Shown: positions 31,171-34,009 of the stretch, in pieces
How positions within the stretch are numbered: position 1 is the first letter of the stretch
Layout: every line of letters begins with the position of its first letter
NCBI GenBank assembly: GCA_028285755.1
Contig: JANQOQ010000008.1
Coordinates: 505,399 to 569,398, forward strand
Reading direction: 5' to 3'
DNA length: 64,000 bases
Source: Puniceicoccaceae bacterium
GTDB lineage: Bacteria; Verrucomicrobiota; Verrucomicrobiia; Opitutales; JAFGAQ01
Notes under the pieces: model-generated
What the model was told of the DNA's origin: nothing
Seen by the model: only the letters and a program-made list of their open reading frames with translations
The model's database searches: none
Position numbers and translations under genes: made by a program

Positions 31171-31893
31171 ATGACAAACAAGCAAGGTATCGCCATTATC
31201 CCCCTTATCATCATCCTTTTGTTGGTGGGCGTCGCAGGATTTTCAATTTATAGCTGGCTGGATACGGCCAATGAGGCAAAAGCAGCCCAGGAAGTGGCTG
31301 AGCAACGTGAGCAGGAGATCAAGACTCAACTGGATGAAGCCCTCCAGGAATCAGAAGAAAATGCAGCAAAAGCGGCTGAGCTTGATGAAGAGCTAACGAA
31401 AACTCAGGAAGCAATGCAACTCGCTGAAGAAAAAGCGCAGGCAGATGCTGAGGAGAAGGCAGCCATGATCGCTGAGCTTGAAGAAAAATTTGCAGAGGAA
31501 GAAGCTGCTAAACTCGAAATGGAAGCCAAGGCCGAGGAGCTGAGTTCTGAAATCGAAGAGCTTGAGGTAGCGATTGAGGAAGCGAAAGAGCGTGAAGTTG
31601 CGATTCGCCAATCCTTAGGTGCGACTGCCGGTTCATCTACGGAGGACGGTGATGGCGGTCTTGCGCAAATTCAGGCAGAACTCAATCGCCAGCAGGCAGA
31701 GGTCACCCGTATGCGCCGTGAGCTGAGTGCGACCATCGCTGAAAAGGATGCTGCGATTGCACGTCAGCAAGAGCTTGAGAAGCTTAGTATTGAGATTCGC
31801 TATGATATTGATTACGAAGCACGCTCAATTACCTATAAGCGCCGCTTCCACTCCATGTACAATCGTTTGGCAAATCCTAAGGAAGAGCGCTAG
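31171..31893 (+). CDS. Membrane-anchored coiled-coil protein, unknown
   Basis: A 240-residue protein. One N-terminal membrane helix (about 6-25: IAIIPLIIILLLVGVAGFSI) is followed by a long Ala/Glu/Lys-rich coiled coil (about 30-210), interrupted by a short Gly/Ser/Asp stretch near 150-162, and a small C-terminal part with RYDIDYEARSITYKRRF. No enzymatic motif is present. It may be a periplasmic or cytoplasmic scaffold. A good intrinsic terminator follows the gene. Confidence 0.75.
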   Translation: MTNKQGIAIIPLIIILLLVGVAGFSIYSWLDTANEAKAAQEVAEQREQEIKTQLDEALQESEENAAKAAELDEELTKTQEAMQLAEEKAQADAEEKAAMIAELEEKFAEEEAAKLEMEAKAEELSSEIEELEVAIEEAKEREVAIRQSLGATAGSSTEDGDGGLAQIQAELNRQQAEVTRMRRELSATIAEKDAAIARQQELEKLSIEIRYDIDYEARSITYKRRFHSMYNRLANPKEER

Positions 31894-31922
31894 TTCCTCT
31901 TATATACAAAATTTTCCTATAC

Positions 31923-31954
31923 AGCCATACTCTTAATCAGGGTATGGCTTTTTT
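31923..31954 (+). terminator. Rho-independent terminator after the coiled-coil gene
   Basis: AGCCATAC and GTATGGCT form an 8-bp stem with a 10-base loop, followed directly by a T-run. It lies 30 bp after the stop codon. Confidence 0.85.
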
Positions 31955-31992
31955 GTATCGTGACTTATAAACCAAGCCGGTCATTCTACAGA

Positions 31993-32346
31993 TGTGCACA
32001 AGCGGGGATTTTAAGGAGTAATTGAGTGATAAAATAATACCGGCTTGGCTCACTATTCACAGCTTACTCACAGTCCGAAATGGCTTGATAACTGCCCTTT
32101 ACTGTCAAGATGCGCATTACACGCTTAGTCAGTTTTGTCACCCGTCTGTAACAAAAACTGTAAAATAAATGTGAATTATGGCTTATTTTGTTAATAACTG
32201 GTCAAATAAAGCCTCAAAAGCTACATTTTTAAAAATCTCTATTTACAGGAGCATTAATAGCTTTGCTAATAGGCTTTATAATGAAATGACGAAGTGCCTT
32301 GAGTTGTTCACATGCCATGTGGACAAAAAAAATACGATGTGAATAA
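31993..32346. other. Cluster of DnaA-box-like 9-mers in a non-coding region (candidate origin or DnaA-binding site)
   Basis: The 411 bp between the terminator at 31954 and the gpmI stop hold no ORF. They lie between convergent genes, where no promoter is expected. I count seven 9-mers within one base of TTATNCACA: 31993-32001 (minus), 32053-32061, 32064-32072, 32170-32178 (minus), 32304-32312, 32318-32326 (minus) and 32338-32346 (minus, exact match TTATTCACA). Two of them form an inverted pair at 32304-32326. AT-rich tracts lie between (about 32150-32290), as in a DNA-unwinding element. No dnaA or dnaN gene is in this window, so the assignment as replication origin is only a hypothesis. Confidence 0.45.
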
Positions 32347-32365
32347 CTTTATCTGGCAAGCTGTA

Positions 32366-33937
32366 TTATGAGGTAATAAGGGAACTCCCCGTCATTTCCT
32401 CGGGTTGTTCTAACCCCATCATTTTTAGTAGCGTGGGTGCAATGTCTGCCAGGCGACCCTCCGCTTTCATTTGAGCTCCTTTATGAGTATCGGATACAAT
32501 GACAACCTCAACCGGATTTAAAGTGTGCGAGGTGTGGGGGCCATCTGTATTAAAGTCATACATTTGATCGGAGTTGCCATGATCTGCTGTTACGAGTGCA
32601 CTGCCACCCACACTCAGTGTTGCCTCGAGAAGTTTGCCAACATAGTCATCCACCGTTTCGCACGCTTTCATCACTGCTTCCAGCGATCCGGTGTGACCGA
32701 CCATATCAGGGTTTGCAAAGTTGATAACCACCAGACCATATTTTTTTGAAAGGATAGCCTCTTTGGAAGCTTCGAAAACCCCTTCTGCCGACATTTCGGG
32801 TTTTTGATCGTAAGTGGAAACTTCCTTCGGGCTCGGGATGATTTTACGGTCTTCCAGTAGAAACGGCTCTTCACGGTAGTCGTTAAAGAAAAAAGTAACA
32901 TGCGGAAATTTTTCGGTCTCCGCACAGCGGAACTGAGGGATGCTTGCACTACTTACAACCTCACCTAATATATTAATCATCTTGGGAGGCTTGCGGAAGA
33001 GTATGTTCGGGCATAGGCCTTTTTCATATTCCGTCATGGTTGCATAAAAGATATCGAGCTTTGAACCGCGATCAAATCCATCAAATCCGTCTTCGATGAA
33101 AGCGCGGGTTAATTCACGGGGGCGATCCCCCCGGTAATTGTAGAAGACAACTGCATCTCCATCTTCCACGGTTGCGACCGGGTTACCTGAATCATCCACG
33201 ATTTGCGTGGCGGTTACAAACTCGTCTCCCTTCATCGACGGCTCTATCGGATTTGCGTAATAGTCCTGAATGCCTTCAAGTGCAGACTTTGCTGTTCGCT
33301 GAGCTTTGCGTCCGGTGATGCAATCATAAGCCAGCTGCACACGATCCCAGCGCAGGTCCCGGTCCATCGCCCAATAACGTCCGGTGATAGAAGCAATCTT
33401 ACCCACTCCCATTTCTGCGAACTTCGCCTCAACTTGTTCAATGTAGCCCTTGCCGCTCTCGGGGGGGGTATCCCGGCCATCCGTAAAGGCATGCAGGAAA
33501 ACATCATTCACGCCATTGTTCTTTGCCAACTGGACCAAACCATAGAGGTGCTCGAGCATACCATGCACCCCTGCATCTGAAACAATGCCCATCAGGTGAA
33601 GTTTGTCCCCGTTTTTGGCAGTTTCGATAACCTTCAGAAAGGTCTCATTGCTTTGCAAGGTGTTTTCGCTGAGGCCCTTGTTGATGCGGACGATCTCCTG
33701 ATCTACAATACGCCCGGCTCCGATATTCTGGTGGCCTACCTCACTGTTACCCATAATACCTGCGGGCAGCCCCACATCCAGCCCGGAGGCTTCAATTTCC
33801 GTTCTGGGGTATTCGGTGCGAATACGGTCAGCGACGGGTGTATTGGCGAGCTTCACCGCATTATATTGATCGTGCTTTGAGTTGTGGTTTTCACCCCAAC
33901 CATCACGAATGATGAGGACGGTAGGCTTATATTCCAT
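32366..33937 (-). CDS. gpmI: 2,3-bisphosphoglycerate-independent phosphoglycerate mutase
   Basis: About 523 residues. It interconverts 3- and 2-phosphoglycerate in glycolysis using two metal ions. Motifs: N-terminal [12 protein letters not shown], the catalytic Ser in [16 protein letters not shown], the insert domain with [11 protein letters not shown], and C-terminal [13 protein letters not shown]. The usual family start is a few residues before the DGWG motif, so the ATG at 33937 is preferred to a TTG two codons upstream. Length is normal. It follows topB on the same strand with a hairpin between them. Confidence 0.95.
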
Positions 33938-34009
33938 AGCCAATAGGATTAGAGAGAATATCCGTGGTTGTGAAGCGGTAAATTTGGATTTTTTATCCGT
34001 TTTAAACTT

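Follow-up and report, generated by a model that had tools for sequence, protein, structure and literature searches.

A DnaA-box cluster far from the probable replication origin of a Puniceicoccaceae genome: a candidate off-origin DnaA-binding locus, possibly derived from the control region of a lost gene

Introduction

To our knowledge, off-origin sites that control DnaA are known mainly from Escherichia coli and Bacillus subtilis. In E. coli, datA lies ∼460 kb from oriC (PMC6727663), requires an IHF site at a set spacing, and promotes ATP hydrolysis (PMC10380432), and the DARS cores consist of three DnaA boxes of which boxes I and II are opposed (PMC8682772). In B. subtilis, joint deletion of six off-origin DnaA-box clusters leads to early initiation (PMC5295017), and titration of DnaA on the E. 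coli chromosome has recently been argued for (PMC12371093). In a literature search on Verrucomicrobia origins, none of the titles and abstracts described such an off-origin site.

Here, we describe an intergenic locus near C2:537.5k of a Puniceicoccaceae genome (4.25 Mb in 15 contigs), within a stretch of 64,000 nucleotides that was analyzed as a whole (C2:505399–569398; hereafter the window, whose coordinates are used where no contig is named). Its likeness to the B. subtilis clusters is a grouping of DnaA boxes outside the origin; B. subtilis has six of these whereas we found one outstanding cluster in the 61% of the genome sampled, and the two, from different phyla, are likened by box clustering and not by sequence kinship. 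With datA, it shares being a non-coding DnaA-box locus in the oriC-near part of one arm (∼460 kb for datA and ∼514 kb here, a closeness that may be chance). The IHF site is a feature of datA, however, and no convincing one was found at the locus: the region holds two one-mismatch matches to WATCAANNNNTTR versus 1.2 expected, in a genome with two HU/IHF-family genes. Because no IHF site exceeded chance, we did not file the locus as datA. The likeness to E. coli DARS1 and DARS2 is a three-box core with two boxes opposed, compared by arrangement with core spacing set aside; Fis and IHF sites are features of DARS2, and because two opposed boxes with a third beside them amount to no more than a likeness, we did not file the locus as a DARS either.

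Our best reading, to which we assign a probability of about 0.5, is that the locus is an off-origin DnaA-box cluster that acts like E. coli datA or the Bacillus clusters and that began as the regulatory region of a gene since lost. If true, this would add an off-origin DnaA site from a distant phylum, provide a concrete route by which such sites originate (a DnaA-controlled promoter whose gene is lost), and help to test DnaA titration as a general means of replication timing.

Results

A dense cluster of DnaA boxes between convergent genes

The genes around the locus are gpmI, topA, and a coiled-coil gene. The features of the locus are as follows, with G002, G003, and G004 denoting relatives described below.

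31171 to 31893, plus strand: upstream convergent neighbor, predicted coiled-coil protein of 240 aa
31894 to 32365, no strand: DnaA-box cluster locus, intergenic between convergent genes, 472 bp, 36% GC
31923 to 31955, plus strand: intrinsic terminator of the upstream coiled-coil gene, an 11-bp stem and then a T run
31993 to 32001, minus strand: DnaA box TTGTGCACA, a variant also found upstream of dnaA in G002
32053 to 32061, plus strand: weaker DnaA box CTATTCACA, at an in-phase distance of 11 bp from 32064, aligned with TTATTCGCA in G004
32064 to 32072, plus strand: weaker DnaA box TTACTCACA, aligned in G002, G003, and G004
32170 to 32178, minus strand: weaker DnaA box TAATTCACA, a variant also in the probable oriC of this genome
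32189 to 32197, minus strand: weaker DnaA box TTATTAACA, a variant also upstream of dnaA in G004
32304 to 32312, plus strand: DnaA box TTGTTCACA, first arm of an inverted pair; the same 9-mer occurs at the probable oriC of G002
32318 to 32326, minus strand: DnaA box TTGTCCACA, second arm of the inverted pair
32338 to 32346, minus strand: exact DnaA box TTATTCACA; the same 9-mer is kept upstream of dnaA in four genomes
32366 to 33943, minus strand: downstream convergent neighbor gpmI, 2,3-bisphosphoglycerate-independent phosphoglycerate mutase (PF06415 and PF01676)

The original prediction described this region as AT-rich, non-coding, and flanked by convergent genes, which agrees with its low GC content relative to the surroundings (∼48%) and with the open reading frames on either side; because these genes converge, neither requires a promoter in the intergenic region. 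It had also counted seven 9-mers close to TTATNCACA in ∼350 bp, with one of them exact and fewer than one expected. The density stands and the count does not, as we found eight 9-mers with at most one mismatch from TTATNCACA in 354 bp (31993–32346) and a ninth at 31900. The box at 32338 is the sole exact match among them. In 3000 dinucleotide-preserving shuffles of the 472-bp region, near-boxes averaged 0.84 with a maximum of 4, and none of the 3000 reached the observed nine. The inverted pair at 32304–32326 also proved to be real, with the form TTGTTCACATG-C-CATGTGGACAA, a 23-bp near-palindrome whose 11-nt arms are 91% complementary.

In the sampled part of the genome (2.60 Mb, 61%), the locus was the densest 400-bp cluster (eight boxes), followed by the region upstream of dnaA (six boxes), and the probable oriC likewise fell below it. 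Using the strict motif TTRTNCACA, the locus alone in this sample had four sites per 400 bp (mean 0.024), and only four close same-strand TTRTTCACA pairs turned up when the whole genome was searched. The window as a whole was not enriched (56 near-box matches versus 50 expected). When family boxes at dnaA and dnaN, and none from the locus, were used to train a weight matrix, the matrix placed the locus at the top in 1.40 Mb, above the dnaA region (itself partly in the training set) and the probable oriC.

Other identities for the region were tried and rejected: a repeat or mobile-element end, as no second copy of the region was found in the genome; a structured RNA, as the only Rfam match was non-significant; a hidden gene, as there were only short open reading frames (54 aa for the longest fully inside the region); and a sigma-70 promoter, as the two matches in 31700–32600 were not above shuffles.

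The same place in relatives and a lost metallophosphoesterase gene

In three relatives picked by synteny alone (G002, G003, and G004), gpmI is followed by a metallophosphoesterase gene (PF00149, with weak similarity to UDP-2,3-diacylglucosamine diphosphatase), and in G002 and G004 the coiled-coil gene comes next; the contig of G003 ends before that point. The metallophosphoesterase gene is present in 120 of the 273 genomes of the order and absent from the window's genome (97% complete) and from G001 (86% complete). Because it is widespread in the order, we infer a loss here rather than a gain elsewhere.

Between gpmI and the metallophosphoesterase start, the relatives carry three, two, and one near-boxes, a total of six versus 0.70 expected that was reached in none of 2000 shuffles. 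One box is aligned in all four genomes and lies 33 to 38 bp upstream of the metallophosphoesterase start in the relatives; it reads TTACTCACA here and in G004, TTATCCACA in G002, and TTATTCACA in G003 (the same site is also written CTGTGAGTAAG, CTGTGGATAAG, and TTGTGAATAAC, respectively). A second box, just after gpmI (32304 here), has the counterparts TTGTTCACA in G002 and TTATTCACA in G004. At 47% mean column identity, the alignment of the intergenic regions is loose and rests on short anchored blocks, and the genus is represented by one genome only, the window's own. Conservation in relatives, which the original prediction had named as a check, extends to part of the arrangement in three relatives. 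Because boxes are aligned or matched in the relatives, part of the cluster is older than the split of the genera, and the sequences suggest that in this genome the gene disappeared while the sites persisted and further ones were added. We found no comparable box clusters near gpmI in more distant Opitutales outside the family, which counts against our best reading, and tandem boxes upstream of metallophosphoesterase genes were not general across the order, occurring in these three relatives of the family and, as a similar pair, in one further genome (L207).

The placement of the relatives' boxes so close to the start codon resembles the dnaA autoregulation type, where a box stands at about −27 from dnaA; the difference is that no gene follows here, as it has been lost and both neighbors point toward the region. 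The main rival to our best reading is a non-functional relic, in which the boxes would be left over from a control region through which DnaA once acted on the lost metallophosphoesterase gene and may bind DnaA without any present role. The relatives that keep the gene with a box directly upstream, a position that fits promoter control and not titration, speak for the relic and against our best reading, as does the weakness of the aligned pair in this genome (TTACTCACA and CTATTCACA), as in a decaying relic. The distribution of the gene in the order together with its absence here also speaks for the relic. However, decay alone would cut the number of boxes, so the nine found here versus three, two, and one in the gene-keeping relatives count against it, and the strongest boxes are at the gpmI end, away from the start of the lost gene. 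We consider the relic somewhat unlikely.

Two further observations concern this region. The coiled-coil protein has 240 aa here versus 385 to 388 aa in G002 and G004, whose proteins match it in two overlapping pieces, which suggests a missing or repeated inner segment. In addition, the block 32133–32200 aligns with repeated GTTAC motifs upstream of the relatives' metallophosphoesterase and may be a regulator site or a promoter remnant.

Identity of the boxes

The typical DnaA box of E. coli is TT[A/T]TNCACA or one mismatch from it (PMC8682772). Five of the 9-mers at the locus (TTATTCACA, TTGTTCACA, TTGTGCACA, TTATTAACA, and TAATTCACA) also occur in the regions upstream of dnaA or dnaN in this genome or its relatives. 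That the family uses the same variants at its probable oriC and in front of dnaA supports reading those at the locus as DnaA boxes. The DnaA protein of the genome is complete (full-length TIGR00362 match).

The 9-mers could instead be sites of another DNA-binding regulator whose motif resembles a DnaA box. The 23-bp near-palindrome does look like the site of a dimeric repressor, and several unrelated genes have tandem TTATTCACA pairs nearby, but three to four genomes of the family share the same 9-mers in front of dnaA (where the box at about −27 is kept in four genomes) and in front of dnaN at the skew minimum. This is as expected of DnaA itself and makes another regulator quite improbable.

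We regard as very unlikely a DARS-like action, in which the opposed boxes and a third would hold ADP-DnaA head to head, aid the release of ADP, and raise active DnaA; the three boxes at 32304–32346 do include an opposed pair, but such a pair alone is a weak likeness.

Position relative to the origin

The original prediction had also proposed that the locus might be oriC in a genome with dnaA elsewhere, and it had set GC skew beforehand as the test that would count against this. It was right that no dnaA or dnaN is near: dnaA is on another contig (C15, at 734 kb, in a stretch of mostly negative skew), and dnaN is ∼514 kb away on the same contig as the locus. Within the first 60 kb of C2, the cumulative GC-skew minimum is at C2:24129, inside the gene scoring as dnaN. 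Between 40 kb and the contig end at 1.307 Mb, almost all of the 20-kb stretches sampled on C2 have positive GC skew, the one at 380 kb being slightly negative, and the locus is mid-arm in this contig with no switch of skew. Directly upstream of dnaN is a 261-bp AT-rich region (C2:23436–23696) with TTATTCACG, TAATTCACA, and TTATTCACA; in G002 and G004, which belong to the same family, TTGTTCACA or TTATTCACA lies upstream of dnaN at nearly equal distances (about −100, and in G002 also −250). Because it is AT-rich and its boxes are conserved in sister genera, this region is the probable oriC, and the terminus side is probably near C15:180–200 kb, where skew turns from positive to negative. Although the locus has dense boxes in AT-rich, non-coding DNA, it adjoins neither dnaA, dnaN, nor another usual origin gene, and with the skew minimum and conserved boxes at dnaN, an origin at the locus is exceedingly improbable.

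The same survey yielded several minor observations. About 620 bp of very AT-rich DNA lies upstream of dnaA (C15; L001 467–1089) and carries, besides the box at about −27, a group of boxes near −300. A search for parS returned one palindrome within mnmG and no cluster; this perfect palindrome, TGTTCCACGTGGAACA (C2:49997; L106 9997–10012), is two bases off the usual parS and 26 kb from dnaN. In positions 1 to 120,000 of contig C11, two sampled 20-kb stretches had GC skews of +0.19 and +0.27, far above the rest of the genome.

Discussion

The boxes at the locus are clustered beyond chance, lie outside the probable oriC, and match the organism's own DnaA boxes. Since roughly half a million bases separate the locus from the probable oriC, it is more likely to sequester or reset DnaA than to initiate replication itself. 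The datA-like locus that the original prediction offered as its alternative fares well as a candidate DnaA-binding site, given the density, the variants shared with the probable oriC and dnaA, and the partial conservation; titration is proposed by analogy with the known systems.

In the mechanism we propose, DnaA would bind the strong boxes (32304, 32318, 32338, and 31993) and from there extend by cooperative binding to the weaker ones. Lying ∼12% of the genome length from the probable oriC, the locus would be copied early in each round and so be doubled early, and the doubled locus would lower the amount of free, initiation-competent DnaA and help to block re-initiation, whether through titration by itself or by gathering DnaA molecules so that their bound nucleotide is changed. 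The cluster would have grown from the region upstream of the metallophosphoesterase gene that is kept in sister genera and lost here. Against this reading, only one box is an exact TTATNCACA, and no IHF site was found beyond chance. A stronger version, which we think unlikely, is that an Opitutales-like bacterium acquired a replication-control locus, either a DnaA sink or a nucleotide switch, through loss of the gene that this locus once controlled, with the DnaA-bound promoter region freed from its gene, boxes gained, and a datA-like role taken on at a distance from the origin similar to that of E. coli datA.

Finally, tandem or facing TTATTCACA sites stand by other genes of this genome (L103 221–239, L102 341–361, L100 153–182, L101 268–287, and L147 7423–7450). 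These genes are possibly controlled by DnaA, and the sites in L101 stand in front of a type IV pilin-like gene.
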